DNA of 64,000 nt from Bacteroidia bacterium (GTDB taxonomy: Bacteria > Bacteroidota > Bacteroidia > B-17B0 > Aurantibacillaceae): positions 186,001 to 250,000 of the forward strand of contig JAEUTO010000005.1 in NCBI GenBank assembly GCA_016787785.1, in the 5' to 3' direction. The notes beneath the pieces are model-generated. The model saw only the letters and a program-made list of their open reading frames with translations, was not told the origin of the DNA and did not search any database. Both the position numbers and the translations under genes were made by a program. Every line of letters begins with the position of its first letter. The stretch's first letter is position 1. This document shows positions 14,709 through 32,061 of this stretch, piece by piece.

Positions 14709-17141
14709 ATGAGAATTTATTTAAAAGCGATGTGCCTGTTAGGCTTGTTGATAGGCTCAACTATTTCGGCACAAAATTACGGATGCCAGCATGGAAAAAA
14801 TATGCAGTCGGCAGCACCCATATATTATAGTGCCGAAAATCTTAGAAGCGATACCTTTAATATATTAACCTATACTATCAATTTAGAGATAGGTAATTTT
14901 ACCACCAAGGATATTAAGGGAAATACACAAATTCGCTTTGCGCCAAAATTAAATAGCAGAACCTTTATTCGTTTTGATCTTCTTAAATTAACGATTGATT
15001 CGATAAAAGAGAATGCAACAACATTAACCTACACTTATAACGACACTATCTTGAAGGTTAATTTTACTGCGCCAAAAAACACAACCGACACCTCTATATT
15101 TACAGTTTATTACCATGGTTTGCCACAGGGCGATCCAAGTGGTTGGGGTGGTTTTTATTTTGACAACCACGCCGGCAATCAATACGCTTATAATTTAGGT
15201 GTGGGTTTTGGTGCCAAACCACATAATTATGGTCGCGTTTGGTTTCCTTGCTTTGATAATTTTGTAGAGCGTAGTAAATATGTATTTAATATTACCTGCG
15301 ATTCTACACGCCGTGCATATTGCAACGGGCAATTAACTTCTGATGTTGTTACCTTAGCAAAACGTACACGCCAATGGGTGTTGAACGAAGAGATCCCAAC
15401 TTATTTAGCCAGTGTTGCGGTTGCAAAATACAAACAGGTAAACTGGACAATTAACGCGCTTAATGGTGTTAAGCCAATTACTTTGGTTGGTGTTGCTGCA
15501 GATACTACTGCAATGAAAAACGGTTTCGTTAATTTAAAAAATTGTATTCATGGATTTGAGAATTATTTTGGGCCTTATGTGTGGAACCGTTTTGGTTATG
15601 CGTTGGTACCATTTAATAGTGGTGCTATGGAACATGCAACAAATATTGCCTACCCGCGTGCGGTAATTGGTAACCTTGCATACGAGGCAGAATTAATGGC
15701 GCATGAATTATCGCATCACTGGTGGGGCGATCTTATTACCTGCGAAACTCAGGAAGACATGTGGATAAATGAAGGGATGGCAACCTTTAGCTCTTACATG
15801 TTCTTAGAATGGCAATACGGCAAAACAAGTTATTTAAATGCAGTGAAAACCGAACACGATGATCTGTTACATTTCCTTCATAAAAAAGATGGTGGCTTTA
15901 GAGCAATTAGTGGTATTCCGCACAGCACAACGTATGGCGACCATGTTTACAAAAAAGGCGCAGATGTTGCACACACGTTAAGAGGTTATATGGGCGACGT
16001 TCCTTTTTTTAACGGCGCAAAATATGTAATGCAACAAAACGCATATAAGAGTATAAACAGTAATGAGTTTAGGAACTTACTTCAAACAAGCAGTGGGCAA
16101 AATTTAACCGATTTTTTCACCAACTGGGTATTTACAGGAGGCTGGTCGCATTTCGCGATCGATTCTGTAAAATACACACAGCTCTCACCAACAAGTTATG
16201 ATGCAGTTATTGCTTTAAAACAAAAAACGTATGGCACAACGTTGCTTCATAATAATGTGCCCTTAGAAGTTAAATTTTTTAAGAACGATTGGTCGTTCGC
16301 AGTTAAAACAGTTACCATGAGTGGCGCCACCGGAAGTTTTACAGTTAACCTTCCATTCAATCCGGTTTACTCGGCTTTAAATTACGATAGCAAAATTGGA
16401 GATGCTACATCACACGAAGTTAAAACCGTAAAAAATACCGGAAATCTTAACTGGAATTTAGGAAAAGTATCTATGATCGTTCAAAATAAAGGTTTGGATT
16501 CGAGTTTGATCCGCGTGGTACATAATTACGTGAAGCCAGATCCATTCAAGAACAATCCTGCAAATCATAAACTCTCTAACCAACATTTCTGGAAAGTGGA
16601 AGGGATCTTATCTCCCGGCTTTGTTTCAAAGATCAGATTCAATTACGATGGAAATAAAACAATTGGCGGTACTTTTTCTTATTTAGACACACTTCTAACC
16701 ATCGTAAATGGAGACAGCGTGAGATTATTTTACAGAGCAAACGCCGCAGATGATTGGAAAGTAATTAAGAATATGAACAAATTTATTTCCGGCACAAGAA
16801 CCGGTTTTATTGAAATTGATACTTTAAAACTGGGAGAATATGCATTTGGTAATTCTACAGACACCAGTTCGGTTGGGATAATTGAACATGCAAAAAATAG
16901 TGTGGATGTAAAAGTTTATCCAAACCCGGCAAAACATAAATGCACGCTGGAGTTTAAAGACGAGTTAAAAAAAGAATACACGTTAAGCATGTACGATATT
17001 GAAGGAAAAGTGTTGTTAAACAAAAACATCAGCGCAAAAGTTACAAACCTAGATATTAGCCAATTTGGCAAAGGCACCTATTTTATAAAAATAGCAAGCG
17101 ATAATAAACTGGTGTACAGCCAGAAATTGTTAATTGATTAA
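14709..17141 (+). CDS. secreted M1-family metallopeptidase with T9SS type A tail
   Basis: An 810-residue exported zinc aminopeptidase-like protein. Residues 1-21 are a signal peptide (ISAQ). The zinc site HELSHHWWGD gives H332, E333 and H336, with the third ligand E355 in MWINEGMATF: the exact HExxH-x18-E spacing of family M1. The substrate-anchoring GAMEN motif reads GAMEH (305-309). The last 75 residues (VKVYPNPAKHKCTLEF ... GTYFIKIAS) form a type A T9SS sorting domain, so the protein is carried across the outer membrane and anchored or released there. It probably trims peptides outside the cell. TAAATTTA at 14697-14704 is an imperfect -7 element very close to the ATG. Confidence 0.93.
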   Translation: MRIYLKAMCLLGLLIGSTISAQNYGCQHGKNMQSAAPIYYSAENLRSDTFNILTYTINLEIGNFTTKDIKGNTQIRFAPKLNSRTFIRFDLLKLTIDSIKENATTLTYTYNDTILKVNFTAPKNTTDTSIFTVYYHGLPQGDPSGWGGFYFDNHAGNQYAYNLGVGFGAKPHNYGRVWFPCFDNFVERSKYVFNITCDSTRRAYCNGQLTSDVVTLAKRTRQWVLNEEIPTYLASVAVAKYKQVNWTINALNGVKPITLVGVAADTTAMKNGFVNLKNCIHGFENYFGPYVWNRFGYALVPFNSGAMEHATNIAYPRAVIGNLAYEAELMAHELSHHWWGDLITCETQEDMWINEGMATFSSYMFLEWQYGKTSYLNAVKTEHDDLLHFLHKKDGGFRAISGIPHSTTYGDHVYKKGADVAHTLRGYMGDVPFFNGAKYVMQQNAYKSINSNEFRNLLQTSSGQNLTDFFTNWVFTGGWSHFAIDSVKYTQLSPTSYDAVIALKQKTYGTTLLHNNVPLEVKFFKNDWSFAVKTVTMSGATGSFTVNLPFNPVYSALNYDSKIGDATSHEVKTVKNTGNLNWNLGKVSMIVQNKGLDSSLIRVVHNYVKPDPFKNNPANHKLSNQHFWKVEGILSPGFVSKIRFNYDGNKTIGGTFSYLDTLLTIVNGDSVRLFYRANAADDWKVIKNMNKFISGTRTGFIEIDTLKLGEYAFGNSTDTSSVGIIEHAKNSVDVKVYPNPAKHKCTLEFKDELKKEYTLSMYDIEGKVLLNKNISAKVTNLDISQFGKGTYFIKIASDNKLVYSQKLLID

Positions 17142-17151
17142 AGCGTGATCT

Positions 17152-18723
17152 TTGGCCGGTACAGCAAAATTAAAAATTGACGATCTTTTTGAGAATAAAT
17201 TTAAGATCGTAGACGTTCAAAAATTTATTTACTTTTTCCTTCTGTTTAATTGCATTCTTTTAGTTATTACCTTTAATCATCCCATTGGAGATTTTGGTAA
17301 TTACTATTACGGCAGCAGGTTTTGGAGAGAAGGCATTGATCCTTTAAAATTCTATCAAAGCATCCATTTTTTTAATTCCGAAATAAGACTTTATGAAAGT
17401 GGTGTGTTTTTTGAGAACTATACGCCGGTGCCTCCATTTTCATTGCTCTTTTACTGGCCCTTCACATTTTTAAAATTGTCGGTTGCCAAATTGCTTTTCA
17501 ATCTTTTAGGCCTTTTTGTATTCTGTTTTTCGCTACAACGACTTATAAAAACGTTGAGAGTAATTAGCCCAGCTTTTTATTTTCTTCCTGTTATTTTTTT
17601 GCAGCCGCTTTATTCTAATTTTCATCACGGACAAGCTTATTTATTAATAGCGGCTTTATTGTTTGAATTTTATATTGCCTTACAAAACAATAGAAAAATA
17701 ACCCCGGGCGTAATTATTGCGCTGTTGTTCTGTTTAAAGGTCTTTCCGGCATTTATTGCCGTTCTGTTTTTATTTAAAAAAGACTGGAAAGCCTTTGGCT
17801 GGACCATTTTGTTTACCAGCGCCATACTTTTATTGACCTATTTATTGGTTGGTGCAGAAGTGGTAAATTATTATTACCAGGATGTCTTTCCGCGTTTGGC
17901 TCTTAACGATGTAACAGCACCATTTTCTCATTTTAACCAGAGCTTTCACACTTTCTTATTAAATAGTTTTGTTTTTCATCCCTTTTTAAATCCCACGCCA
18001 CTGCTTAATGCTACACTAATAGCAGTTATTGCACAGGTGGTGTTTTATAGTTTTGTTTTTAGCCTGTTTATAAAAGTGGTTTTAAAACAAGATGTATTTG
18101 CGTCTTTTTTTATTTCTGTGTTAGTTTTGGTTTTAATAAATAAATACTCCACCGTGTATGGGTTGATTGTACTGTTTCCTTTCATTTTCTTTTTAAAAAA
18201 CATAAACATCAAAAAAATGGCTTTAATATGTTGTCTCTTATTCATTGCCTGTAATGTTCCAATTCATAAGTTGAGCAATTTACCGCTCCTATTACAATAC
18301 ACACGTGTATGGCTCTTAATAGCGGTATTTATTATTATAATGGTTGAATTTAAAACCGCATTTGATCTTAAATATTTTGTAGCCTGTTTGCTTATCTTTA
18401 TTTTACCCTCTATGGCTTTTTATAACTATAAAAGTGATAGCGTAAATGAGTTCAGATCAAAAACCGGTGTGGTTTACGATTTTAATGTAAGTCATGATCA
18501 TATTGATATGTATACCTGCATGGGTAATAGAGATACTTTAGAGCGGATAGCATTTGTCTCAAATAAAATAGATTCAACTACCTTTAGAAAAAATTATCCT
18601 GAACATTTATTGACGAATAAGGCTATTTTTGTAAATAATAAAGACCTTATATTTATGTCAGACGAAAATAGTGGTGTTGGTATGTATTATTTACAAGTAA
18701 TAAAACCTACACGAGTAGAATAA
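17152..18723 (+). CDS. GT87/DUF2029-like polytopic membrane glycosyltransferase
   Basis: A 523-residue protein with about ten to twelve hydrophobic spans. Features typical of the GT87 (DUF2029) C-type glycosyltransferases, which take sugars from polyprenyl-phosphate donors on the outer face of the membrane, are visible: the acidic first-loop segment GDFGNYYYGSRFW, YTPVPPFSLLFYWPF, HHGQAYLL and CLKVFPAF. The soluble C-terminus (about residues 425-523) carries no recognised fold. The start is TTG at 17152, 10 bases after the peptidase stop. Its stop overlaps the next ATG by one base (TAATG). It is the first gene of a nine-gene run ending at 27706. Confidence 0.75.
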   Translation: MAGTAKLKIDDLFENKFKIVDVQKFIYFFLLFNCILLVITFNHPIGDFGNYYYGSRFWREGIDPLKFYQSIHFFNSEIRLYESGVFFENYTPVPPFSLLFYWPFTFLKLSVAKLLFNLLGLFVFCFSLQRLIKTLRVISPAFYFLPVIFLQPLYSNFHHGQAYLLIAALLFEFYIALQNNRKITPGVIIALLFCLKVFPAFIAVLFLFKKDWKAFGWTILFTSAILLLTYLLVGAEVVNYYYQDVFPRLALNDVTAPFSHFNQSFHTFLLNSFVFHPFLNPTPLLNATLIAVIAQVVFYSFVFSLFIKVVLKQDVFASFFISVLVLVLINKYSTVYGLIVLFPFIFFLKNINIKKMALICCLLFIACNVPIHKLSNLPLLLQYTRVWLLIAVFIIIMVEFKTAFDLKYFVACLLIFILPSMAFYNYKSDSVNEFRSKTGVVYDFNVSHDHIDMYTCMGNRDTLERIAFVSNKIDSTTFRKNYPEHLLTNKAIFVNNKDLIFMSDENSGVGMYYLQVIKPTRVE

Positions 18724-19859
18724 TGAAACGAGCAAGTATATATTTTATTGGAATTATTTTTTTGTTTTTTTCCTGCAAAAAAGAAGCTGTGGTTGATAAT
18801 ACCATTAACCTTGAATTTACTAAGATCTACGAAATTGATAATTGGGAAAATGGCCGTGGTGGTTTATTATGGGCGCTTTCTTTTTTAGGTGCAGAATTAA
18901 GAAAAGACAGTTTAAATGCCGCTATCACGAGGTTAGACTCTACCAGGTTCAGTCTAGATCTTTCCAGAGTTGGTTTTTCTGCGCAAGCAGTAAGCGCATT
19001 AAAAATAATAAACGATTCACTTAAAAGAACAGAAGAATATAAAATTAAAAACTCGATCGATCTTGGGGCTTTTGTCTCATTGCTGTTAGGGAGTAGCGAA
19101 CACTATTACCGTATTACAGGTGTTGAAAGAACCTATGCAGAAAAATTAAATAAACATAAGGGCGAAGTTCCGATTGTTTTCCCTGTATCAAAGTCGGTGG
19201 TCTCAAAAAATACGCGGGTTTTAAAAGTGTATAATAAAGGTGCTTATACCAATTGGTTATTTATAGCCGAAGAAGGCGTTGGCGACATCAGCAAAAACGA
19301 ATTTAAAGTAAGTGCCTACGAAGTATTTGATATTATGCCAAATGGCCAATTGCGTTTTTCGGTTTACGATGTAGAAGGTAAGATAATGAATGGAAGCCCG
19401 CAAGCTATTAGCGAGGCCGGTAAGCCTGCTAAATGTTTATGGTGCCACGAAATTAATATTCAACCCCTTTTTGCAAATAACGATTCAATTTCTGGTTATA
19501 TCTCGCAAAGGCAGTATCTCAATTTAGTTAAAACACTAATGGATACATTGACGGCTGCCCGTAAAAAATTAAATAGCGATATTGATTATTCAAAAACACA
19601 GGATCATTCTTTGACTGAGCGTTTGTACGTTGGATATATGGAACCATCGCTCATGAAACTTTCTAAAGAATGGAATATTCCTGCAAAAGCATTGAAAGAT
19701 ATTTTGAAAAATAACCGTACACATAACTACCACGATTTTGAATTTTTTGGAGATATCTATTACCGCGATTCCATTATTCAATTTGCTCCCTTCAAAGCCG
19801 GTATTCCAATTTTTAGCGTAAGGGAGAATGATCCCCGGGAGCCAAATTTTATAAAATAA
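18723..19859 (+). CDS. lipoprotein with a single CxxCH (heme c-type) motif
   Basis: A 378-residue lipoprotein with lipobox FLFFSC (C18) followed by KKEA. Mid-protein KCLWCHEINIQPLF contains C238-x2-C241-H242, the covalent heme c attachment motif. Downstream Met residues (for example VGYMEPSLM) could serve as an axial ligand. No classic cytochrome c fold length is obvious around it, so binding of heme is an inference. The gene is coupled at both ends: it shares a base with the glycosyltransferase stop, and the flippase TTG follows its own stop directly. It might supply an electron-transfer or structural function in the envelope to the cluster. Confidence 0.7.
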   Translation: MKRASIYFIGIIFLFFSCKKEAVVDNTINLEFTKIYEIDNWENGRGGLLWALSFLGAELRKDSLNAAITRLDSTRFSLDLSRVGFSAQAVSALKIINDSLKRTEEYKIKNSIDLGAFVSLLLGSSEHYYRITGVERTYAEKLNKHKGEVPIVFPVSKSVVSKNTRVLKVYNKGAYTNWLFIAEEGVGDISKNEFKVSAYEVFDIMPNGQLRFSVYDVEGKIMNGSPQAISEAGKPAKCLWCHEINIQPLFANNDSISGYISQRQYLNLVKTLMDTLTAARKKLNSDIDYSKTQDHSLTERLYVGYMEPSLMKLSKEWNIPAKALKDILKNNRTHNYHDFEFFGDIYYRDSIIQFAPFKAGIPIFSVRENDPREPNFIK

Positions 19860-21026
19860 TTGAAGGTACTGAATTCAAATACGGGCATTGTTTTTTCAAA
19901 TACAATAAGAGGCGTTTCCTCTTCTTTATTGAATGCCTTTGTTTGTTTCGCCTTTACTGCGCTTAATTTGCAGCTAGATCTTAAAGACTTCGTTATTTTT
20001 TTTACTGGTAGCAATTTATTATTGATCGTTTTTAATTGGGGCTTAAGAGACTACAGCGTTAAATTATTTACGTCAGAATCAGATACAAGAAATATATTTT
20101 CAAAATTATTTTCATTAAGGGTCGCTTTGTATTTTGTGTTGGGGATAGTTCTCGTTTTTCTTCCCCTTAAATTAATCTTATTGGTTTTTATCCTGGCCTT
20201 TTCTTTTTTTAAATCAATTAATAATACCATTGAGGCTTTTTCCACTTCGAGGAATAAAAATGTAGGATTTGCTTTTATCGATATCCTTTCACTTTCTGTT
20301 TTGGTTATCGCGTATATAATGAATTTTAACTTTACGTCCCTCTCAGTTTTTATTTTAATTACCGCATCCGAAATAGTAAAGGTCGTTTGTGGCCTTCTTA
20401 TATTCAATAAAGAAATTTCGTTGCGACTTATAAATCCCTTTCCTTTTTTAAAAGAAACAATAAATTATTTTTTAGTTGCCTTTTTTGCTTTCCTGCTTTC
20501 AAAGGTCGATTTTTATATTTCTTCATTTTATTTGGGCGCAAAAGATCTTATCAATTATCATATTTATAGCAGCTTAATAGGTTTATCGCAAATAATAATT
20601 ACGTCTTTTTTTTCGCGGCAAATGGTAAACTGGTTCAAATCAAAAGAAGATAAATTTAATGTGGATATGAAGCGCTTTGCTTTTGTTTCCTTTGTTTTAT
20701 CGCTTTTGGCATTACCTTGTTTTTATTTTATCACTTTATATTTTTACAAATTCAACATTTCCGTTACTATGTTGGCGTTGGTATTTTTTAACTTGTTTAT
20801 TTTCTCATTTACGCTACTGGAAATATACTTGTACACACATCAAAATAAGCACCGCGTTATTTTAACAGGTGTGCTTTTCTGTTCTTTCATTAATATTGCT
20901 CTATCCTTCATTATTATCAGCTATTTTGCAGTAATAGGCGCAATTTTAGCAAACATTATAAGCCTATTTGCACTATATTTATACTTTAAAATTGTTGCTA
21001 AACACCGTTTCAAAAATGGCTCTTAA
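19860..21026 (+). CDS. Wzx-like oligosaccharide flippase family membrane protein
   Basis: A 388-residue protein with about ten to twelve hydrophobic spans and few charged residues except in short loops. This matches the polysaccharide (PST/Wzx) branch of the MOP flippase superfamily, which moves lipid-linked oligosaccharides to the outer leaflet. N-terminal FSNTIRGVSSSLLNAFVCF and the internal repeat-like helical pairs fit. The start is TTG immediately after the previous stop. Its 3' end overlaps the next gene by 11 bases. It could also be an exporter of another lipid-linked product of the neighbouring enzymes. Confidence 0.7.
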   Translation: MKVLNSNTGIVFSNTIRGVSSSLLNAFVCFAFTALNLQLDLKDFVIFFTGSNLLLIVFNWGLRDYSVKLFTSESDTRNIFSKLFSLRVALYFVLGIVLVFLPLKLILLVFILAFSFFKSINNTIEAFSTSRNKNVGFAFIDILSLSVLVIAYIMNFNFTSLSVFILITASEIVKVVCGLLIFNKEISLRLINPFPFLKETINYFLVAFFAFLLSKVDFYISSFYLGAKDLINYHIYSSLIGLSQIIITSFFSRQMVNWFKSKEDKFNVDMKRFAFVSFVLSLLALPCFYFITLYFYKFNISVTMLALVFFNLFIFSFTLLEIYLYTHQNKHRVILTGVLFCSFINIALSFIIISYFAVIGAILANIISLFALYLYFKIVAKHRFKNGS

Positions 21027-22518
21027 TATATTGTTATTTAACCCTCGAAGTGCCAGGTCAAAACCCAGGATACCCAACAGTATTTTGCAGGTGGCGGCAT
21101 CTATTGAGGGAAAGCATAACTATATTATTGTTGATGGCAATATGGAGAGTGATCCTGAGCAGGTTATTTTAAATTATTTCTCAAACCAAAAAATAGACGT
21201 TTTTGCAAGTACGGTAATGCCGGGCCCCCAGCTAAAACAAGCTATTCCGTTTTCTATCAAATTAAAAAAATTATACCCCAACTTAAAAATTGTTTGGGGA
21301 GGTTATTTCCCTTCCAACCAACCGGAGCCGGTTTTAAATTCGGGTTTTGTAGATGTCATTATTAATGGCATGGGCGATATTTGTTTTCCTATGGTTTTAG
21401 AAGCATTCGAAAATAATACGGGTTTAGAGGATATCCCCAATATAATATATAAAAAAGAGGGCAAAATTATTTCTGCCAAAAAGGACCAGATCTATGATCT
21501 TGATACTTTACCAGCATTACCCTATAAGAAACTTAACGAGTTTTATGACATAAAAAAATATTTAGGCAAAACGTATTTGGGCACAAAAACAATTGCGTAC
21601 CATAGCAGTTTTGGTTGCCCTTTTACCTGCTCGTTCTGTGGTGTTGTACCAATATATAATGCGCGCTGGAAAGGAAAATCGGCGAAAGCAATTTACGACG
21701 ACATTCTTTTTTTAAAGAATAATTTTGGCGGTAATGCTATTGAGTTTCACGACAACAATTTTTTTGTGTCAGAAAAACGTACAGTTGAATTCAGCAATCT
21801 AATTAAGAATGAAGGGATGATCTGGTGGGGCGAAGGAAGGATTGATACCATTGACAAATACAAAGATGAAAGCCTGGCATTAATGCGAGAGGCCGGTTGC
21901 AAAATGATATTTTTTGGTGCAGAAACAGGAAACGACACGGTTTTAAAGGCCATGGATAAAGGTGGTACACAAACCGGCGAACAAATAATAAGATTTGCAG
22001 AACGTATTGCGAAATTTGATATTATTCCCGAATATTCTTTTGTATTGGGAATGCCGGGATCGGATGAGGCGCTGGTAAATAAACAAATTGATGAGGATAT
22101 TGAATTCATTAAAAAGATCAAAAAAGTAAATCCGGCTACAGAAATAATTATTTATTTGTATAGCCCGGTTCCAACAAAGGGTTCTGAATTATACAACATG
22201 GTTACTAGCACCGGTTTTAAATTTCCGGAGAAGTTGGAAGACTGGATCTCGCCACACTGGGAAAATTTTGATCTGCGTAAAAATCCGCTTACACCCTGGC
22301 TTAAGCCTTACATGATCGATAAGATCAAAAATTTTGAAACGGTAATCAATGGCGTTTATCCAACAGTTTCGGATATACGTTTAAAGAACTGGCAGCGTAG
22401 CTTTTTAAAAACATATACCAGTTTGCGATACAAAACGGGTTTTTATAATTTTCCATACGAAATTAAAGCACTCCAAAAGATCTGGAACTACCGCCAACCT
22501 GAAATAGAAGGTTTTTAA
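21016..22518 (+). CDS. B12-binding-type radical SAM protein (first)
   Basis: A 500-residue enzyme with an N-terminal Rossmann-like cobalamin-binding-type domain (residues about 1-125, ending in IVWGGYFPS) and a radical SAM domain. The cluster motif is C201-PFT-C205-SF-C208 (FGCPFTCSFCG). Further typical blocks are FHDNNFFV, WWGEGRIDTI, MIFFGAETGN and EYSFVLGMPGS. The DxHxxG base-off cobalamin motif is not visible, as in many of this class. Family members perform C-methylations, ring formations or other radical steps. I chose ATG 21016 (MALNILLFNPRS) over 20968 because conserved homology begins there. The stop overlaps the methyltransferase start by one base. Confidence 0.85.
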   Translation: MALNILLFNPRSARSKPRIPNSILQVAASIEGKHNYIIVDGNMESDPEQVILNYFSNQKIDVFASTVMPGPQLKQAIPFSIKLKKLYPNLKIVWGGYFPSNQPEPVLNSGFVDVIINGMGDICFPMVLEAFENNTGLEDIPNIIYKKEGKIISAKKDQIYDLDTLPALPYKKLNEFYDIKKYLGKTYLGTKTIAYHSSFGCPFTCSFCGVVPIYNARWKGKSAKAIYDDILFLKNNFGGNAIEFHDNNFFVSEKRTVEFSNLIKNEGMIWWGEGRIDTIDKYKDESLALMREAGCKMIFFGAETGNDTVLKAMDKGGTQTGEQIIRFAERIAKFDIIPEYSFVLGMPGSDEALVNKQIDEDIEFIKKIKKVNPATEIIIYLYSPVPTKGSELYNMVTSTGFKFPEKLEDWISPHWENFDLRKNPLTPWLKPYMIDKIKNFETVINGVYPTVSDIRLKNWQRSFLKTYTSLRYKTGFYNFPYEIKALQKIWNYRQPEIEGF

Positions 22519-23195
22519 TGTTAGATCGTTTACATAAAAAAACGTACGATGTTTTTATACAACCTTTTTTAAAACTCTATTTAAAAAAAGCAAGATCGTT
22601 TACCTACCACGGTATCAACTTAAAGATCTATCCCGGCGTTTTTCATCCTGCTTATTTTTTTAGCTCTACCTTTTTTGCAGAATTTATTCAGAACCTTGAT
22701 CTTAATAATAAAAAGGTTTGCGAGGTGGGCGCCGGTTCGGGATTATTGAGTTTTATTGCACTAAAAAAAGGAGCCGCTGTTTGTAGTTTTGATATTAGCT
22801 CCACTGCTGTAAATGGTATCAAAGAAAATCTCAAATACAATTTTCCTGAAGCCAAAAATTTTGAGGTTTATCTATCCGATCTGTTTGATTCTGTTCCTGA
22901 GAATAAATTCGATCTTCTTTTTATAAATCCACCTTATTTTTTTAACGATCCTCAAAACGAAGGCGCATTTGCCTGGTATTGTGGTAAAAATGGAGAGTAT
23001 TTCGAGAAATTATTCGCACAATTAGGTAAATATTCACTGCCATCTTCTCAAATATTCATGTCTTTGGCCGATAATTGCGACCTGGAGAGGATCAACGCAA
23101 TAGCAAAAAAGCATAATTATTTGTTAAACCTTGTAACCGAAAAGAAAATAAAGTGGGAAAAAAACTTTATCTTTAAAGTTATAAAGGATACATGA
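22518..23195 (+). CDS. class I SAM methyltransferase with NPPY motif
   Basis: A 225-residue methyltransferase. Motif I is CEVGAGSG (68-75) and motif IV is INPPYFF (NPPY at 137-140). NPPY is the signature of enzymes that methylate planar nitrogen, as in HemK/PrmC and RNA or DNA N-methyltransferases, so the target may be an amide or base nitrogen. The cluster setting instead suggests a small-molecule or glycan substrate. It is coupled to the radical SAM gene before it and overlaps the next gene by 4 bases. Length and layout resemble PrmC-like proteins without the N-terminal helical domain. Confidence 0.8.
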   Translation: MLDRLHKKTYDVFIQPFLKLYLKKARSFTYHGINLKIYPGVFHPAYFFSSTFFAEFIQNLDLNNKKVCEVGAGSGLLSFIALKKGAAVCSFDISSTAVNGIKENLKYNFPEAKNFEVYLSDLFDSVPENKFDLLFINPPYFFNDPQNEGAFAWYCGKNGEYFEKLFAQLGKYSLPSSQIFMSLADNCDLERINAIAKKHNYLLNLVTEKKIKWEKNFIFKVIKDT

Positions 23196-24118
23196 TAGCA
23201 GTAGATTTAGATAAGGTGACTTTAACCAAAGGTCAGTTTGCAGTGTATAGCTGCCTATGCTATTTTGATGTGTTTAAATATCCCGTAAAGCCAAATCAAA
23301 TATTCGATTTCGTCAATTTTAAAACCACACAAACGCAGGTTAATTTGATCCTTAACGAACTGGTGGAGCTTAAAATGATAGCGGAAGCAGATGGCTATTA
23401 TTTTTTAGAAAAAGCCAATGCTGATTTTATTGCAAAACGTTCTGATTCAGAAAAAAGATTTCTGGAAAAACAAAAGGTAATTAAGCGTTACGCTAACTTT
23501 ATTTCGCGTTTTCCTTTTGTTGAGTCGGTTTGTATTTCGGGCTCATGTTCAAAAGGATTATTGGAAGATGATGGAGATATAGATTATTTCATCATCACAT
23601 CCCCAAATAAATTATGGCTATGCCGTTCTATTTTAATTGCTTTTAAAAAGATCTTTCTTTTTAACTCAAAAAAATATTTTTGCGTTAATTATTTGGTTGA
23701 TTCAAATAACCTCGAGATCCCTGATAAAAATATTTTTGTAGCTACCGAGGTAAGAACGCTTGTGCCAATTACCAATAAAGCCTTGTTTGAAAAATTTCTT
23801 GATGTAAATAACTGGACAAAAGAATTTCTACCAAACAAACAGGCGTATGATTCAACTTTCTTAAAAGAAAAAAAAGCAACCAAGTACTTTTTCAAACTAG
23901 TAGAAGTTTTATTTGGCGGTAAACTTGGCGATAAGTTGGATAAAAAATGTTTTGAACTTACGCTTTCGTCCTGGCAAAAAAAATTCCCTAACTTTTCTAA
24001 AGAAGATTTTGACCTAAATTTACGCAGTCGAAAAAATGTTTCAAAACATCACCCGCGCGGCTATCAAAAAAAGGTGTTAGCAGAATTGAATTTGCGCCTT
24101 GAAAAGATAAATTGTTGA
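23192..24118 (+). CDS. nucleotidyltransferase-fold protein with N-terminal winged-helix-like region
   Basis: A 308-residue protein. Residues about 10-75 (GQFAVYSCLCYFDVFKYPV ... LNELVELKMIAEADGYYFL) look like a winged-helix domain. A polymerase-beta-type nucleotidyltransferase core follows: G117-S118 in CISGSCSKG and the metal-binding pair D129/D131 in DGDIDYFII. The third acidic residue is not certain. Such proteins add nucleotidyl groups to small molecules, proteins or RNA. Its place among radical SAM and methyltransferase genes suggests activation or tailoring of the cluster's product. It overlaps the methyltransferase by 4 bases and precedes the next radical SAM gene by 9. Confidence 0.7.
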   Translation: MIAVDLDKVTLTKGQFAVYSCLCYFDVFKYPVKPNQIFDFVNFKTTQTQVNLILNELVELKMIAEADGYYFLEKANADFIAKRSDSEKRFLEKQKVIKRYANFISRFPFVESVCISGSCSKGLLEDDGDIDYFIITSPNKLWLCRSILIAFKKIFLFNSKKYFCVNYLVDSNNLEIPDKNIFVATEVRTLVPITNKALFEKFLDVNNWTKEFLPNKQAYDSTFLKEKKATKYFFKLVEVLFGGKLGDKLDKKCFELTLSSWQKKFPNFSKEDFDLNLRSRKNVSKHHPRGYQKKVLAELNLRLEKINC

Positions 24119-24127
24119 TTTCATAAA

Positions 24128-25576
24128 ATGAAAGTCCTTTTTACACATTCGTATTTCCTGCATTTTGATAATAAACAATTAAAAACGAAGACGCCTTTTG
24201 CGCCCCTGGCAACACTTTATGCCGCTTCCGTTTTAAGAGAAAATGGATACGAAGTAAAATTAGCCGATCTTCAATTTGCTACTTCGCCCGATGCTATTAA
24301 ACAACATTTAGAAAGTTTTAAACCGGATGTATTTGTAATTTATGACGATTCGTTCAACTACTTAACTAAAATGTGTTTAACCAATATGCGCGAAGCTGCT
24401 TTCAACATGCAGAAATTAGCAAAAGCATATAATATCCCGGTTATTGTTTCGTCATCTGACGCTACTGATCACCTCGAAAAATATTTTTCTAATAATGCAG
24501 ACTATATTATTATTGGCGAAGCAGAACAAACACTTTTAGAACTAATAAATGGTTTAAAACAAAAAAATAGTTTTGATCCGGCTTTAATAAATGGTCTAGC
24601 GTATTCTTCAGAAAATAAGATCATTAAAACTCCGCCGCGGCTAGTATTAAAAAACCTTGATCAGTTGCCTTTACCGGCCTGGGACCTTGTAGATATTACA
24701 AATTACAAAAGCGCATGGCTTTCAGGACACGGTTTCTTTTCAATTAATTTTGTTACTACGCGTGGTTGTCCATACAAATGTAACTGGTGCGCAAAACCGG
24801 TTTATGGTAACAGATACAATTCGCATTCGCCACAAAATGTAGCTAAACAAATTAAACACTTGCAAGCCCAATTTGGCTTTACGCACATTTGGTTTGCCGA
24901 TGATATTTTTGGATTAAAACCAAATTGGTTAAAAGAATTTAATGAGTCAATTAAAGAACTAAATATAAAGATCAAATATAAAATTCAAAGTCGCGCCGAT
25001 CTTTTATTGGAAGATGAAAATATAAGATACCTTGCAGAATCGGGTTGTGAAGAAGTTTGGATAGGCGCTGAAAGTGGTTCGCAAAAGATATTGGATGCTA
25101 TGGATAAGGGAACGACCATAGAACAAATAAAGGAAGCCACACTACTTCTTAAAAAACACAGCATAAAACCTTGTTTCTTTTTGCAGTTTGGTTATACCGG
25201 CGAATTAATTGCTGATATAGAGAAAACCATTTCAATGGTAGACGAATTAAAACCACACGATATTGGTATTTCGGTTTCTTATCCATTGCCGGGTACAAAA
25301 TTTTACGAAAACGTAAAACAAGATCTGGTAGCAAAACAAAATTGGAAAGATTCTGACGACCTGCACCTGATGTTTAACAGTACTTATAAAGCAAATTTTT
25401 ACCGCTATTTACAACGCTTTGTCCATTATAAATTCAGAGGGCAACAAGCAAAGGACCTTATCAAAAAAGGAACGATCAATAAAAGAAGTTTACTAAGGCC
25501 GTATTATTTATTTAAACAACAAAGCCTTAAAAAGAAATTAGAAAAATTAGAACCCAATGCAAGTAGCCTCATTTGA
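24128..25576 (+). CDS. B12-binding-type radical SAM protein (second)
   Basis: A 482-residue protein built like the first: an N-terminal cobalamin-binding-type domain (KVLFTHSYFLHF ... YIIIGEAEQTLLELI), then the radical SAM motif C214-PYK-C218-NW-C221 in TTRGCPYKCNWC, IWFADDIFGLKP, SRADLLLED, EVWIGAESGSQKILDAMDKG and the C-terminal HDIGISVSYPLPGTKFYENV. It is clearly paralogous to the third (26342): both keep FAPLATLYAAS/VPLGILYISA and GAESGSQKI at matching positions. Its 3' end overlaps the following methyltransferase by 20 bases. Confidence 0.87.
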   Translation: MKVLFTHSYFLHFDNKQLKTKTPFAPLATLYAASVLRENGYEVKLADLQFATSPDAIKQHLESFKPDVFVIYDDSFNYLTKMCLTNMREAAFNMQKLAKAYNIPVIVSSSDATDHLEKYFSNNADYIIIGEAEQTLLELINGLKQKNSFDPALINGLAYSSENKIIKTPPRLVLKNLDQLPLPAWDLVDITNYKSAWLSGHGFFSINFVTTRGCPYKCNWCAKPVYGNRYNSHSPQNVAKQIKHLQAQFGFTHIWFADDIFGLKPNWLKEFNESIKELNIKIKYKIQSRADLLLEDENIRYLAESGCEEVWIGAESGSQKILDAMDKGTTIEQIKEATLLLKKHSIKPCFFLQFGYTGELIADIEKTISMVDELKPHDIGISVSYPLPGTKFYENVKQDLVAKQNWKDSDDLHLMFNSTYKANFYRYLQRFVHYKFRGQQAKDLIKKGTINKRSLLRPYYLFKQQSLKKKLEKLEPNASSLI

Positions 25577-26345
25577 TAGTTATGCCGAGCTCTACGATGA
25601 GCATTTTACCTATTCTCCCATTGGTTTGCTTCAAAGGGAAATGGTCTATTCACATTTGATCCCTTTATTAAATAAAGAAAAAAATGTGCTTGAATTGAAT
25701 TGTGGAACCGGTTACGATGCCTTTGAAATTGCCAGACAGGTAAATTCAATTTTGGCTACTGATGTGTCTCCAAAAATGATCGAACAATGCCGGACAAAAA
25801 AACGGGAGGAAAAAACCGCCAATATTGATTTCGAAAAAAAATCAATACAGTCGCTTGAACCGGAGCTTAAAAATAAAAATTTTATTTTTTCGAATTTTGG
25901 AGGATTGAATTGCATTTCGCCAAACGATCTGAATGATCTTTCAATAAAATGCAATTTACTTTTAGAAAAAGAGGCAGATCTTTTTTTTGTGATCATGGGA
26001 AGGAAATGTATTTGGGAAAGACTATATTTTACTTTAAAATCCAGAAAGAAAGACGCGAACCGCAGGAAATTGACGCAAGGCGTTACTGCGCATAATAACG
26101 ATACGGAATTTAAGATCTGGTATTATTCTCCAAAGGAAATTCAACAGGTATTTGGCCCTAATTTTAAAATTCAAACACTTGCCGGCGTTGGTTTATTTGT
26201 GCCTCCTTCTTATTTAAATCCCTTTTTTAGAAATAAGAAAGCACTACTTTCACTTTTTAATGGTCTTGATAAAGTATTTTGTAAATTTAGTTGGACCGCT
26301 GATCATGCAGATCATTACATATTGCATTTAAAGAAAGTAAGTTGA
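25557..26345 (+). CDS. class I SAM methyltransferase
   Basis: A 262-residue methyltransferase with motif I VLELNCGTGYDA (44-55) and ATDVSPKMIEQC just after it, typical of the UbiE/Methyltransf_11 group acting on small molecules, lipids or sugars. It begins SFDSYAELYDEHF, also usual for this group. The start lies inside the end of the preceding radical SAM gene, and the stop TGA overlaps the next start TTG (TTGA), so it is translated together with both radical SAM neighbours. Confidence 0.82.
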   Translation: MQVASFDSYAELYDEHFTYSPIGLLQREMVYSHLIPLLNKEKNVLELNCGTGYDAFEIARQVNSILATDVSPKMIEQCRTKKREEKTANIDFEKKSIQSLEPELKNKNFIFSNFGGLNCISPNDLNDLSIKCNLLLEKEADLFFVIMGRKCIWERLYFTLKSRKKDANRRKLTQGVTAHNNDTEFKIWYYSPKEIQQVFGPNFKIQTLAGVGLFVPPSYLNPFFRNKKALLSLFNGLDKVFCKFSWTADHADHYILHLKKVS

Positions 26346-27706
26346 TACTTTTAACGCACGGATATTTTTTAAAAGACGATCCCAAAGAATTGGAGATCAT
26401 GAAACCTTATGTTCCATTGGGCATTCTCTACATTTCGGCCTATTTGGAAAGTAAAGATATTGCGCACGACGTATTTGATTCTACCTTCTCATCTTTTGAA
26501 GAATTTAAAGTTTATCTTCTTAAAAACAAACCTAATTTAGTTGGCATTTATACCAATTTAATGACCAAGGTTTCTGTATTAAAAATTACAGAATTTATTC
26601 ACCAACATCCTGAACTTAAAAATTGCAAAGTTATTTTAGGCGGACCCGAAATACGATACAACGCCGAAAATTATTTGTTGAACGGTGCCGATATGTTAGT
26701 GGTTGGCGAAGGCGAGCAAACTTTTTTTGAAGTTGCAGACTTCTTTAATACTAATAATGTTCTTCCAGCCGAAGTGGCGGGTACTGCTTATCTTCAAAAC
26801 CAAACCGTTTTTTTTACACCCGAACGCACGTTAATAAAAGATATAAATACCTTGCCCATGCCGGCAAGAAGTAAAATAGATCTTACTTTGTATGGCAATG
26901 CCTGGAAAGAACATCATGGTTACAGCATGTATTCTATAAGTACCATGCGTGGTTGCCCTTACACCTGTAAATGGTGTAGCAGGGCAGTGTATGGCGGCAC
27001 CTACAGAAGACGCAGTGCAAAATTAGTGGTGGACGAGCTGGCCTATTTAAAACAAAATTATAACCCCGATCGCGTTTGGTTTGTAGATGATGTTTTTACC
27101 ATAAGCCATAAATGGATGAATGAGTTTAAAGATGAGGTCTTAAAACGACAGGTTTTTATTCCTTATGAAATTATTACGCGCGCTGATAGACTAAACGAAG
27201 ACATTATAAAAATTTTAAAAGAAACAGGTTGTTTTAGGGTTTGGATAGGAGCGGAAAGTGGTTCGCAAAAAATAATTGATGCAATGGATAGGCGTGTGAA
27301 TGTAAAAGAGGTACGCGAGATGATCATTAAAACAAAAGCCTATGGCATAGAGGCTGGAACCTTTATTATGCTTGGTTATCCGGGCGAAAATAAAGCAGAT
27401 ATAAAAGAGACCATTCGCCATTTAAAAATATCTGATCCAAGTTATTATACCGTTACATTGGCTTATCCTATTAAAGGAACGCCTTTGCATACTGAAGTTA
27501 ACGACACCATTGAAGCCGCCGGCGCCTGGAATAAGATCAGCGATAGGGATTATGATTTTAAACGCATGCATTCAAAACGCTTCTATCAATATGCCATAAG
27601 ATGGGTCTATAACGAAGTAAATTTCAGTAAAAGTAGCGGTTTTGTAAACAAGGTAAAGTTCAAGGCCAAGTCCATTTTGGCGCAATCCCTGATGTTGCTT
27701 AGTTAA
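26342..27706 (+). CDS. B12-binding-type radical SAM protein (third)
   Basis: A 454-residue paralogue of the 24128 gene. It has an N-terminal cobalamin-binding-type domain with KVILGGPEIRYN and VVGEGEQTFFE, then C205-PYT-C209-KW-C212 in TMRGCPYTCKWC, VWFVDDVF, ITRADRL, WIGAESGSQKIIDAMDRR and GTFIMLGYPGE. The start is TTG (MILLTHGYFLKDD) overlapping the upstream TGA. It is the last gene of the tight run. After its stop a TAAATTTG promoter begins the next unit, so the transcription unit probably ends here, though I see no clear hairpin terminator. Confidence 0.87.
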   Translation: MILLTHGYFLKDDPKELEIMKPYVPLGILYISAYLESKDIAHDVFDSTFSSFEEFKVYLLKNKPNLVGIYTNLMTKVSVLKITEFIHQHPELKNCKVILGGPEIRYNAENYLLNGADMLVVGEGEQTFFEVADFFNTNNVLPAEVAGTAYLQNQTVFFTPERTLIKDINTLPMPARSKIDLTLYGNAWKEHHGYSMYSISTMRGCPYTCKWCSRAVYGGTYRRRSAKLVVDELAYLKQNYNPDRVWFVDDVFTISHKWMNEFKDEVLKRQVFIPYEIITRADRLNEDIIKILKETGCFRVWIGAESGSQKIIDAMDRRVNVKEVREMIIKTKAYGIEAGTFIMLGYPGENKADIKETIRHLKISDPSYYTVTLAYPIKGTPLHTEVNDTIEAAGAWNKISDRDYDFKRMHSKRFYQYAIRWVYNEVNFSKSSGFVNKVKFKAKSILAQSLMLLS

Positions 27707-27748: not shown

Positions 27749-28456
27749 ATGAGTAAGCTCTTCTTTATATTTTCATGTTTATTGCTGCCCGTTTTATGCT
27801 TTTCGCAAACGCCAAAAGACAAAACCGGTTCGGAGGATGAGTTCAATATTAAAAAATACAAAGGCGAACCCGGCGATAGATTGATCATAGAAATTAACCG
27901 CACGGCCTGGTTGGGTGCACCGGCTAATATCAAGACCCACTGGAGAAGTCTGGGTTTAAATTTTGCTTTTATGTTTGATAAACCCATTGGCCGTTCCAGT
28001 TTTAGTTTTGGCTATGGCATTGGTATTTTTAGTCATAATTTTCATAGCAATGCCGAGTTTATTTACAAGTTAGATAGTACAAATAATAAAAGTGTAACTA
28101 CTATTTTGCAACCTAAAACAACCGAGTATAAAACCAACAGTTATAACGAAAAGATCCTTGAAATTCCTTTAGAGATACGATTTAGAAGTAAGACGGACCG
28201 GAAGTTTAAAATGGAATTTGGTGTAAAAGGTGGTTATGTGATAAACGATTTTCGTAAAATGGTAGATGCCGACGGCAAGTTAAGAGTTTACAACACAAAG
28301 AATATCAATCACATCCGTTACGGTGTAAATTTTCGCATTGGCTTTGAACAAATTTGCCTTACCGCTTGTTATTATGTGAGTGAGGTGTTTCAAAAAGACA
28401 GAGGCGTTAACGGTGTTAATATGTACTCGTTTGGTATTGCTATCATTCCTTATTAA
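27749..28456 (+). CDS. predicted outer-membrane beta-barrel protein
   Basis: A 235-residue exported protein. Residues 1-19 form a signal peptide (CFSQ). The remainder alternates hydrophobic and polar residues with Gly/aromatic-rich strands (SFSFGYGIGIFSHNF, LEIPLEIRFRSK, RYGVNFRIGFEQ) and ends in an aromatic residue (IAIIPY), the pattern of small outer-membrane barrels of the PorT/OMP_b-brl type in Bacteroidota. The cargo or partner is unknown. It has its own promoter and shares an operon with the next gene (10-base gap). Confidence 0.65.
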   Translation: MSKLFFIFSCLLLPVLCFSQTPKDKTGSEDEFNIKKYKGEPGDRLIIEINRTAWLGAPANIKTHWRSLGLNFAFMFDKPIGRSSFSFGYGIGIFSHNFHSNAEFIYKLDSTNNKSVTTILQPKTTEYKTNSYNEKILEIPLEIRFRSKTDRKFKMEFGVKGGYVINDFRKMVDADGKLRVYNTKNINHIRYGVNFRIGFEQICLTACYYVSEVFQKDRGVNGVNMYSFGIAIIPY

Positions 28457-28466: not shown

Positions 28467-29195
28467 ATGAAGGGTGTGAATATTAAAGAAGAGCTAACCC
28501 GGTTTAAAAATAAGACCAGGAGCAAAGAAGATGAGCTCATCCAGGAAGCTAACCGAATTTTAAGCAACGATATTTTTTCGGAAGATAAGATCTTAAAGAA
28601 TTTAAAACACTACAATGATTCCTTTGAAATAGTTGATGAAGCAGATGTAGATAGCAATATGATCTTTAAAATTTCGGAGATCAAGAAAATTGCGTTGCAG
28701 TACCGTTTAAAATTTATTGATAGTAAATATTACAAAGCAGAGATCCCTTACGAAGCTATCTTAAAAATAAAACACATTAATTTAGTTTATAAAAAAGACA
28801 TCAAAGGTTTTAAGATCCTGGCTCCGTTAGAAGCATTTAAAGAAGATGGCATAAAAAAACCGGCTATATTATTTGCGCCCACCAATCTTGGCAATTATTG
28901 TATTATTCATAAATGGGGCGATGACTTTAAATGGTACAGAAAATTATTATCCTGGCCGCTAAAGAATTTTGATCATTTATTTACAACGGTGTTTATCTAT
29001 ACATTGATCGTTACCTTATGTATACCTACACCACTAATTACTTTAGATGCCACTGCTGGTTACTGGAGCGGGTATAGAGCAGCAGCCTTTATGCACTTGC
29101 TCATCTTTCATTGCGGCGTAACCGCTTATATTACATTTGCATTTGGCAAGAATCTAAGCTCCATTACCTGGAACCATTATAGGGATTTTGGGTAG
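28467..29195 (+). CDS. uncharacterised protein with two C-terminal membrane spans
   Basis: I do not recognise a family. The 242-residue protein has a charged cytosolic N-terminal part (residues 1-160: helical to about 70, then a mixed beta-rich region around GFKILAPLEAF and ILFAPTNLGNYCIIHKWG). Two hydrophobic segments follow at about 175-195 (FIYTLIVTLCIPTPLITL) and 208-230 (AAAFMHLLIFHCGVTAYIT). It is transcribed with the barrel-like gene before it. A membrane-associated role is all the sequence supports. Confidence 0.7.
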   Translation: MKGVNIKEELTRFKNKTRSKEDELIQEANRILSNDIFSEDKILKNLKHYNDSFEIVDEADVDSNMIFKISEIKKIALQYRLKFIDSKYYKAEIPYEAILKIKHINLVYKKDIKGFKILAPLEAFKEDGIKKPAILFAPTNLGNYCIIHKWGDDFKWYRKLLSWPLKNFDHLFTTVFIYTLIVTLCIPTPLITLDATAGYWSGYRAAAFMHLLIFHCGVTAYITFAFGKNLSSITWNHYRDFG

Positions 29196-29285: not shown

Positions 29286-31040
29286 TTAGGAGCTGGTTAT
29301 TATTTTATTTATTAAATCAAATGTTGGACTAAATCCAGTAAAATCAATAGTGTTTTTATTCAACTCAATACTACTTGCAAAAGCCATTTTGTCCCCAGTA
29401 AACATGTAAACTCTTTGGTCAAATAGAGTTGGATATTGTTTGTTTGGATTTGGTATTGCAGAGTCTTTTAGAAGCAATTCACTAGATAAGTAGCAATAGT
29501 CTGATTTTGGTTTATGGATAAAATCAGATCTATGGGAAGGTGCTACAATTGTAATGGCATATATATTTAATTTAGTTTTATGTTGAAATAGAAAAAACTT
29601 GTCACTTGCCGAATCCATTTGATTAAAAGCCTTTTTTAGAGCCTTTATTTCATCAACTCCTGTTTTGTCAAAATCAAATATGCCTATAACTTTATTATTT
29701 GTAGGGGTCTTTGTAATATGATTAAACAAAAAATCGTTAATAAATCTTGCACTAGAACCAATTGCACTACCATTTGAATTTATTAAATGTTCACAAAGTG
29801 TAAAGTCCGAGTTTATACTTTTATTATAAAGTTTCTTGTAAGCAACTTCAAAAAGTAAATTATCAGATTTACCTTCAAAAATCAAGTATGGTTTCTGTGA
29901 TTCTGATAAAGCAGTTTTTGTTTCACTTATTAATTCCATTTCCTTGGTCAAGGATGTATAAAGTATAGACAATTCTTTATTTATGTCAAGAATTCCTAAT
30001 TCATTTGATAAAATATTTTTGTTTGAATCATCAATTAGTGCAACTTGCGTATTTGAATTATTTTCAAGTCTAAAAACTCTGAATTTAGAAACGTTCGAGA
30101 CGGATAAAGAAATAAAATGAAACGAGTGACTTGCTACAAATATTTGTGTTTTAGTTGAGTATTCTAAAGCAAACTGTTCTGCGATTTTTTGAGAAAGCGA
30201 ATATTCACAAGAATTTTCCGGCTCATCGAATCCCCAAATTTCAATGTATTTGGAGTTAACTGAAATATAATTAAGAATTGTTGGTATATATCTCAGCCTT
30301 ATTCCATCACCTCTTAATCTCAATGGAATGTTATGTTCGCCAGATTGGGTATCAATAATAAGTCTTTGAAATATTTCCGAAATATTATTCGGAAAACTTA
30401 AGCTACTTGTTATTCCAGATACATTTTCAAATTCGCTATTTAAAGCTGTAGTTAAGTCTCTTATAGTTTCATTAAAACCTTTGATGTTTTTTTGAAATGT
30501 TTGACTTCGCTTTCTTTCTTCAACTTCAAAAATAGTTTCTTGAAGTTTATTTAATAAATAACTAAAAAAATGCTCATCTCTAATGGCCGGCACATATGTG
30601 AACCTTATTTTGTTTAGGAATTGGGTTAAAGTTCTTCTTGCAATTTTAACTTTATCGGACGCAAATTTCTTTTGCTTAATTAATGTGTCAAAATTATCCT
30701 TGTAACCATTAATTAAATTCCCTTCTCTGTCCCACGTTTTTGTAATTGAAAAGGTTTCAGGTAATGTTTTATAATTTCCGGGATTCTTTATTTCAAGAGT
30801 AATTTTAATAAATTGTTTTCCTTTAATGCTATCTTTTCTCACTTCTGAAAGCCTGTCTTTATTATAGTCATCAATAAAACTAACTTGAGCTTTATTAAAA
30901 AAAGTATCCAATGCTTTTAGGACATTACTTTTTCCAATATCATTTTTACCAGAAAAAATATTTAAGTGATTTATATTTCGAATAGTCACCTTTTTAAGAG
31001 ATCGGTAGTATTCGATGTCAATTTTTGAAATTATGATCAT
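29286..31040 (-). CDS. OLD-family ATPase with TOPRIM nuclease domain
   Basis: A 584-residue protein with an SMC/ABC-type ATPase of the OLD (overcoming lysogenisation defect) group. Walker A is GKNDIGKS (31-38), a signature-like region lies around LRLRGDGIRLR, Walker B is YIEIWGFDEPE with D272/E273, and the H-loop is ASHS with H305. The C-terminal TOPRIM-type nuclease part shows E389 in LIFEGKSD and D456/D458 in GIFDFD. OLD and Gabija GajA nucleases act in phage defence. No helicase partner follows here, so it resembles a class 1 (single-gene) OLD. A DNA-protection role is inferred, supported by the adjacent restriction-modification genes. Confidence 0.82.
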   Translation of the reverse strand: MIIISKIDIEYYRSLKKVTIRNINHLNIFSGKNDIGKSNVLKALDTFFNKAQVSFIDDYNKDRLSEVRKDSIKGKQFIKITLEIKNPGNYKTLPETFSITKTWDREGNLINGYKDNFDTLIKQKKFASDKVKIARRTLTQFLNKIRFTYVPAIRDEHFFSYLLNKLQETIFEVEERKRSQTFQKNIKGFNETIRDLTTALNSEFENVSGITSSLSFPNNISEIFQRLIIDTQSGEHNIPLRLRGDGIRLRYIPTILNYISVNSKYIEIWGFDEPENSCEYSLSQKIAEQFALEYSTKTQIFVASHSFHFISLSVSNVSKFRVFRLENNSNTQVALIDDSNKNILSNELGILDINKELSILYTSLTKEMELISETKTALSESQKPYLIFEGKSDNLLFEVAYKKLYNKSINSDFTLCEHLINSNGSAIGSSARFINDFLFNHITKTPTNNKVIGIFDFDKTGVDEIKALKKAFNQMDSASDKFFLFQHKTKLNIYAITIVAPSHRSDFIHKPKSDYCYLSSELLLKDSAIPNPNKQYPTLFDQRVYMFTGDKMAFASSIELNKNTIDFTGFSPTFDLINKIITSS

Positions 31041-31428
31041 ATGATTTCTGTCTGTTTAAATTGAACCTAACGTTTTTGCGAATTTGAAAGCGTTTTTTGC
31101 TAAGTCCAAGTTATGCATTTGAGCGTTAACCCGCAAAAAATGACCCGAACTTTCTGTTAGCAACTAGTTACCGCCCTACAGTTTAACTTCTGGTTAAGTG
31201 TCCGCTGATAAATTTTTTCAATTGTCAAACAGATTGTTTACGTCCAAACTTTTTAATTTTTTGTCCGATAGGAATGCAATTTGAAAAATTACTCGTTCCA
31301 ATGTCCACACTGGCGAGTAAGAAATTTTGCAAGCTTATTTGGCGTCACTAAAATTAGTTGCCTTTGAATGAAACGCCAAATGTGCTTGTAAAAAGTCGTA
31401 AGAAACTGGTCAACGAAAAAGAAAAGAA
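31041..31428. repeat. gene-free stretch with attC-like inverted sequences
   Basis: No gene is seen in these 388 bases. Near the OLD start CTAACGTTTTTGCG (31067-31080) is answered by CGCAAAAA (31132-31139) and GTTAG (31156-31160), with further internal pairs (GCGTTTTTTGC, GAGCGTTAAC). Read leftward, the outer end is GTTAGGT, which fits the R' core consensus GTTRRRY of integron attC sites. The opposite core fits poorly. The remainder to 31428 looks featureless. Confidence 0.4.
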
Positions 31429-32061
31429 TTATTTTTTCTCAGTAGTCAATTCGGATGCTTGTTTTGGAAATTTTGTAACTAACCAGTTCAATATATCAAT
31501 TTGATCTTTACTAGGAGCTCGTCGAACTTGCGCAATTAATTTAATAGCCTCTGGTCTATTCAAGGTTAAATTTGACGCGCCCTCATTACAAACAGAACAA
31601 ATTGCTCTTAAATTACCTGGATCATCAGTGCCGCCCATAGATTTGTCTATTATGTGCCCTAAATGCAATCTCGTTTTTCTACCTGCGTCATATGGATGTA
31701 TTTCACCAGCCGCCGCGCCGCACATTTGACAAGTAAAACCGTTGCGATCTAAAACAAAAGCTCTCGTTTCTTTGGATATGCCTCTTTCAAAAGCAGGTAG
31801 GGGTTTTAAATCAATAAGTAAATATTGTCCCGGCTTTAAATCACTTCTGTCATTGTGCGTTACAATATTCATCCCTTCTTCATTACGTAGTTCTCTTACC
31901 CGTCTTCCCCATTCGCTTTTACCGGCAACCTTTCTAAGGGTATTTGAGTCTAATATTTTGCCAACATTGAGAGTGAAAAATTCTCTCAATTTACTTCGAG
32001 AACCCTTACCTTTTGGTGATTTTTTTGAGGCTGCTTTTTTTACTATTGCTTTTTTCGCCAT
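31429..32061 (-). CDS. HNH endonuclease, probable restriction enzyme
   Basis: A 210-residue protein. The nuclease core contains zinc-knuckle cysteines C111/C114 (FTCQMCG) and C155/C158 (ICSVCN) around LHLGHIIDKSMGGTDDPGNL, with H133/H136 and N150 of the HNH motif. It directly follows a cytosine-5 methyltransferase, so it is most likely the restriction partner of a type II system; specificity is unknown. The first 25 residues (MAKKAIVKKAASKKSPKGKG) are very basic, like histone H1 tails, and probably aid non-specific DNA binding. Its start lies 56 bases inside the methyltransferase gene in another frame. Confidence 0.83.
   Translation of the reverse strand: MAKKAIVKKAASKKSPKGKGSRSKLREFFTLNVGKILDSNTLRKVAGKSEWGRRVRELRNEEGMNIVTHNDRSDLKPGQYLLIDLKPLPAFERGISKETRAFVLDRNGFTCQMCGAAAGEIHPYDAGRKTRLHLGHIIDKSMGGTDDPGNLRAICSVCNEGASNLTLNRPEAIKLIAQVRRAPSKDQIDILNWLVTKFPKQASELTTEKK

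Follow-up and report, generated by a model that had tools for sequence, protein, structure and literature searches.

What do nine tightly packed genes of a Bacteroidia bacterium make, when they combine a membrane glycosyltransferase, a possible flippase and three B12-type radical S-adenosylmethionine (SAM) proteins in a cluster of which no description was found in the literature? The genes lie in the window, by which we mean the whole 64,000-nucleotide stretch that was analysed (contig JAEUTO010000005.1, positions 186,001 to 250,000; G000:C13:186001-250000 in our numbering, from an assembly of 4.6 Mb), and the original prediction took their parts to fit the synthesis, radical modification and export of a lipid-linked glycan or envelope lipid. 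We find that the block is a real, conserved and unnamed enzyme module, that the unit that matters within it is the trio g6-g7-g8 (NT-RS2-MT2), and that the module most likely makes a surface glycan or glycolipid in which a residue is built by radical chemistry, the substrate and the chemistry being inferred. This supports the earlier interpretation in part. Nine rightward, closely spaced genes had been predicted at 17152-27706, and a check of the open reading frames confirmed them in that place, the successive junctions from g1 to g9 being -1, 0, -14, -1, -4, 9, -20 and -4 bases, and hence within -20 to +9, when g4 is taken from the ATG at 21013:

17152-18723, +, g1: GT87 (GT-C fold) membrane glycosyltransferase, 523 amino acids; optional partner
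18723-19859, +, g2: lipoprotein with an invariant CxxCH (C238-x-x-C241-H242), 378 amino acids
19860-21026, +, g3: multi-spanning membrane protein, possible Wzx-like flippase, 388 amino acids
21013-22518, +, g4 (RS1): B12-type radical SAM protein, 501 amino acids from the ATG at 21013
22518-23195, +, g5 (MT1): HemK2/MTQ2-like methyltransferase with NPPY, 225 amino acids; partner of RS1
23192-24118, +, g6 (NT): winged helix and nucleotidyltransferase-fold protein, 308 amino acids; obligate core
24128-25576, +, g7 (RS2): B12-type radical SAM protein, 482 amino acids; obligate core
25557-26345, +, g8 (MT2): class I SAM methyltransferase, 262 amino acids; obligate core
26342-27706, +, g9 (RS3): B12-type radical SAM protein, 454 amino acids; paralogue of RS2

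The NT-RS2-MT2 core

A whole-genome survey matched NT in 32 of 396 sampled Bacteroidota genomes and in 25 of 172 genera, which is a patchy distribution, and a scan of GTDB contigs returned 96 relatives, 80 of which were kept, nearly all of them from Bacteroidota and the exception being a contig of a Saccharospirillaceae metagenome-assembled genome. A plasmid search gave no NT, and its RS2 matches were distant, with at most 28% identity among the matches listed. The loci used for comparison were fetched via NT, re-annotated and clustered, and since they had thereby been selected by NT, co-occurrence was tested separately on whole genomes, in which NT is clear in 27, weak in 4 and absent from 30. 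RS2 is present in all 27 clear-NT genomes and in none of the 4 weak-NT or 30 NT-less ones, and MT2 occurs in 27/27, 4/4 and 0/30 of these groups, respectively. Because of these counts NT, RS2 and MT2 are considered an obligate, co-inherited unit. An RS1 orthologue was found in 17 of the 27 clear-NT genomes and in 0/4 and 0/30 of the others (a weaker match in G256 being uncounted), and an RS3 orthologue in 7 of the 27 when hits of at least 500 bits, which is above the cross-matches of RS2, are counted. RS1-MT1 and RS3 are add-on modules, and GT87, the lipoprotein and the flippase are optional, so that the nine genes, which had been taken as one unit, are in fact not equally conserved and only g6-g7-g8 are obligate.

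The core genes are also neighbours, since NT and RS2 adjoin on the same strand in 95 of 101 loci with both and RS2 and MT2 in 75 of 89, and the same holds for MT2 and RS3 (56 of 61) and for MT1 and RS1 (22 of 25). Comparison of gene neighbourhoods across Bacteroidota, the check proposed with the original prediction, does accordingly not refute it as far as the core is concerned, which is co-conserved. The distance matrices of the cluster proteins are furthermore correlated, with r values of 0.70-0.87 that are not corrected for species history. In two loci, L139 (G307) and L137 (G272), NT-RS2 and RS3-MT2 are separated by some 10-15 small genes, as though the core had been split by an insertion.

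Gene fusions tie the core together and to a further enzyme. RS2 and MT2 form a single protein of 727 amino acids in one genome (L126:8740-10923), with 49% identity to RS2 and 28% to MT2 of the window, and four genomes (L134, L143, L149 and L150) encode GT4-NT fusions of 656-798 amino acids with the NT domain C-terminal of GT4. The GT4 domain was recognised by Pfam in all four and the NT part by profile match in three, that of L150 being assigned from its match in the whole-genome NT survey. No other single finding ties NT as firmly to carbohydrate chemistry as the GT4-NT fusion.

The surroundings of the core in divergent loci were assessed by comparing 108 non-core neighbours with 92 genes that lie farther away in these loci, a comparison that is conservative because some of the control genes share the same polysaccharide regions. 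Methyltransferases account for 18 of the 108 neighbours and at most 1 of the 92 controls (Fisher p about 1e-4), and the neighbours further include 5 GT2, 5 O-antigen ligases (Wzy_C), 4 heptosyltransferases and 7 amidohydrolases, while a Wzz gene is likewise found beside the core in relatives. The recurring amidohydrolase (e.g. L134:4053-5213) is akin to aminofutalosine deaminase and might recycle 5'-deoxyadenosine from the radical SAM reactions. A DeoD-like nucleoside phosphorylase gene also recurs by the core in some Flavobacteriaceae (L074:16177-16920 and L117).

Enzymes of the module

Pfam identifies Radical_SAM and an N-terminal B12-binding domain in g4, g7 and g9. Radical_SAM scores 48.4 bits in g4, and the B12-binding domain passes the cut-off of 32.1 bits in g7 (37.7) and g9 (41.3) and lies just under it in g4 (30.0). 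The C-x3-C-x2-C cluster motif is invariant in 37 RS1, 100 RS2 and 62 RS3 sequences, and the DxHxxG motif, which is often missing in the B12-binding radical SAM class, is found in none of the three families. The hosts evidently use B12, since a B12-binding_2 protein is present in all 20 cluster-bearing genomes tested, with frames of methionine-synthase size in most of them.

Whether the radical SAM proteins fall within a family of known, unrelated function was the other check proposed, and it too leaves the prediction standing, as neither RS1, RS2 nor RS3 reaches the cut-off of a named NCBIfam family (BchE, HpnJ, PhpK, ladderane type). HpnJ and BchE are cobalamin-dependent radical SAM enzymes that form or rearrange rings; they are the best NCBIfam matches of RS1 and RS2 and have the same succession of B12-binding and radical SAM domains, but the scores of RS1 and RS2 are at most a third of the cut-off (for HpnJ at most 127 of 578 bits) and there is no hopanoid or bacteriochlorophyll context. 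Similarly, the PhpK family of P-methyltransferases and the ladderane-type TIGR04072 are the first and third best matches of RS3 (152 and 125 bits, the latter being the highest ladderane-type score), but RS3 is under the respective cut-offs of 600 and 360 and is not a member; HpnR also appears among the matches, far under its cut-off. By the tests run the module is thus outside the hopanoid, ladderane, BchE and PhpK groups. Of the proteins with solved structures, entry 9ccb, AprD4, CysS, OxsB and TokK are among the nearest in sequence. Since cobalamin-dependent radical SAM enzymes without methylation activity carry out ring formation or rearrangement (PMC13142503), methylation and rearrangement are both possible.

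A SPASM-type radical SAM protein encoded at 10422-11447 (+) was initially grouped with cluster-linked SPASM proteins as a fourth cluster enzyme, but was dropped. It has about 23-24% identity to most of these, its 74% match in L045 lies off the core, and its orthologues occur in 9 of 27 genomes with the core and 9 of 34 without; the protein is common throughout Bacteroidota and shows no link to the core.

The predicted structure of g6 (predicted local distance difference test score, pLDDT, of 90) consists of a winged helix and a nucleotidyltransferase core. S116, G117, D129 and D131 are conserved, both aspartates in 81 of 81 homologues, and Pfam NTP_transf_2 scores 20.0 bits, just under the cut-off of 21, and is found in 18 of 25 homologues with E values up to 0.01. 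With G-S and D-x-D on the modelled core, g6 has the motifs of the nucleotidyltransferase (polymerase-beta) superfamily. The model weakly matches the structures of MntA, AadA and AAD(9), and the core with G-S and D-x-D is common to these, but g6 has in addition the winged helix and, at its C-terminal end, a region with an invariant SKHHP-type motif, and a sequence search gave no significant match. Both g5 and g8 are SAM methyltransferases according to Pfam. Despite its NPPY motif (NPP in 32/32 and Y in 29/32 homologues), g5 is not a member of the HemK2/MTQ2-type family, since it scores 66.6 of the 87 needed.

Envelope genes and the likely product

The GT87 assignment of g1 is clear (PF09594, 79.6 bits against a cut-off of 25); the protein has 10 hydrophobic segments, and D47 is kept in 32 of 33 homologues. 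Neither g2 nor g3 gave a match in Pfam. The CxxCH is invariant in all 27 homologues of g2, and 25 of these keep the lipobox cysteine, making g2 a candidate c-type haem protein, but the structural matches are unconvincing, as nothing in the PDB matched its predicted fold (pLDDT 87) under an E value of 0.1. About 8 hydrophobic segments were found in g3, and of 18 homologues a single one matches Polysacc_synt (E 0.0015). The predicted part identities thus hold for the GT87 enzyme, the CxxCH lipoprotein, the three radical SAM proteins, the two methyltransferases and the nucleotidyltransferase fold, whereas the Wzx-like label of g3, resting on topology, is weak. A DPM-like GT2, which is common beside GT87 in Flavobacteriaceae and has a copy with 65% identity in the genome of the window (C4:498389-499126), was considered as a core component and rejected as not core-specific (7/27 core genomes versus 4/34 others). 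The DPM-like GT2 gene at L148:9377-10144 (G000:C4), in the genome of the window, adjoins LptF/OstA-like genes and could supply the polyprenyl-phosphate sugar for GT87.

The co-occurrence of RS2 and MT2 with NT, their adjacency, the RS2-MT2 and GT4-NT fusions, the carbohydrate neighbours and a GT87 enzyme with a conserved aspartate together lead us to read the block as a cell-surface glycan or glycolipid pathway around the obligate trio, and we give this reading, with the stepwise mechanism proposed here, about an even chance of being right. At the cytoplasmic face, NT and a GT4-type enzyme from outside this cluster would put in place or activate a residue, either a sugar or a cyclitol, on which RS2 with bound cobalamin and SAM would make a carbon radical, leading to C-methylation or ring rearrangement. 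MT2 would then cap the product by O- or N-methylation, and RS3, RS1 and MT1 may act at additional sites. Moving the lipid-linked unit outward could finally fall to the g3 membrane protein, and GT87 might add a polyprenyl-phosphate-bound sugar at the periplasmic face.

Several observations weigh against this reading. The window cluster has one glycosyltransferase only, the flippase identity of g3 is weak, and GT4-type enzymes are not significantly enriched by the core (15/108 neighbours versus 6/92 controls, p 0.11). Furthermore, three of the four genomes with the fusion (G112, G123 and G385) have GT4-NT and MT2 with RS2 not detected, so that RS2 is dispensable in some versions; in these an epimerase-like gene adjoins MT2, an APH-like kinase gene is present in G123 and apparently in G385, and NT and MT2 of G112 are about 0.86 Mb apart. 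The window does resemble Wzx/Wzy-type O-antigen or capsule loci in having a GT-C enzyme and a possible flippase, as do relatives in which the core adjoins GT4, O-antigen ligase, Wzz and heptosyltransferase genes, but it is unlike them in that polymerase, ligase and initiating transferase are all missing and in that a nucleotidyltransferase, a B12-type radical SAM enzyme and a methyltransferase are obligate. The absence of a capsule polymerase gene had been noted, and Pfam finds neither a polymerase nor an O-antigen ligase in the nine genes, the latter being found beside the core in some relatives. The proposed role in glycan synthesis gains support from the GT4-NT fusions and from the neighbours in relatives, among them O-antigen ligases and Wzz, both missing from the window. 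Export of a lipid-linked product does not hold as proposed, since it depends on a flippase of weak identity and on a GT-C enzyme with no counterpart in many relatives.

The trio could alternatively make a diffusible specialised metabolite, aminocyclitol or nucleoside-like, with the surface-sugar genes as chance neighbours or exporters. This notion stems from the solved radical SAM relatives AprD4 (apramycin), OxsB (oxetanocin) and TokK and from the weak likeness of the NT model to aminoglycoside nucleotidyltransferases, but it is made unlikely by the recurrence of O-antigen ligase, Wzz, heptosyltransferase and GT87 genes by the core and by the lack of polyketide- and peptide-synthetase families from the 25 neighbour families seen most often (there being 46 rarer ones besides). 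That the radical SAM core (g4-g9) and the envelope set (g1-g3) are two unrelated neighbours sharing a transcript in this lineage only seems more doubtful still. Such an arrangement would explain why the lipoprotein is missing from most core genomes and why GT87 and flippase homologues occur in just 38 and 24 loci, respectively, most of the flippases being 15-24% identical. It is however in poor agreement with the Flavobacteriaceae, where lipoprotein and GT87 homologues recur by the core in another order and strand, and with the 61 whole genomes, in which the lipoprotein occurs twice, both times inside the cluster and never away from the core.

We regard it as quite improbable that the pathway modifies lipids in the manner of hopanoid side-chain or ladderane synthesis, in which case the lipid itself would be the substrate of the radical SAM enzymes. 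The NCBIfam matches to HpnJ, HpnR and the ladderane-type model point in this direction, as does the nucleoside-phosphorylase-like gene of some relatives, but all the family scores are far under their cut-offs and the phosphorylase is DeoD-like and not near the hopanoid model. Hopanoids are furthermore unlikely because the 20 carriers searched have no convincing squalene-hopene cyclase, the matches being short and partial, confined to 5 of the 20 and at best 39 bits, in a 340-residue frame of the genome of the window.

Within the surface-glycan reading, it may tentatively be suggested, at somewhat less than even chances, that the module represents a hitherto undescribed way of making surface glycans, whereby B12-type radical SAM enzymes, one to three in number, form carbon-carbon bonds on a residue attached to a lipid or polymer, yielding a C-branched or ring-rearranged sugar, and the nucleotidyltransferase-fold protein is a dedicated partner of GT4. 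If the surface-glycan reading is right, a patchy, phylum-wide set of Bacteroidota would apply vitamin-B12 radical chemistry to the cell surface, one pathway would unite three radical SAM families and a nucleotidyltransferase family that are now orphans, and the trio would provide a simple genomic marker and a defined enzyme set to reconstitute.

Genes around the block

Three further genes flank the nine:

14709-17141, +: M1 peptidase with a type IX secretion system sorting tail, 10 bases upstream of g1; cluster membership uncertain
27749-28456, +, g10: outer-membrane beta-barrel protein (Pfam OMP_b-brl_2); lineage-specific extension of the block
28467-29195, +, g11: family not recognised, two hydrophobic segments; lineage-specific extension of the block

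In the close relatives L035, L036, L037 and L047 the M1 peptidase likewise precedes the block and g10 and g11 follow it in the same order, and a g11 homologue is also found 3' of MT2 in L038 and L039. An Rfam scan of the window gave no match, and a B12 riboswitch is therefore without support; promoter and terminator scans gave results not above those of shuffled sequences. Genes of defence or restriction-modification type on the minus strand at 29286-32995, encoding an AAA/OLD-like ATPase, an HNH endonuclease and a C5 cytosine methylase, sit between g11 and the gene at 33283, and look like an insertion because in L037 and L047 the homologue of the 33283 gene comes immediately or almost immediately after g11. 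Further along, at 47117-57968 on the minus strand, the window holds two very long open reading frames in tandem, of 1622 and 1981 amino acids.

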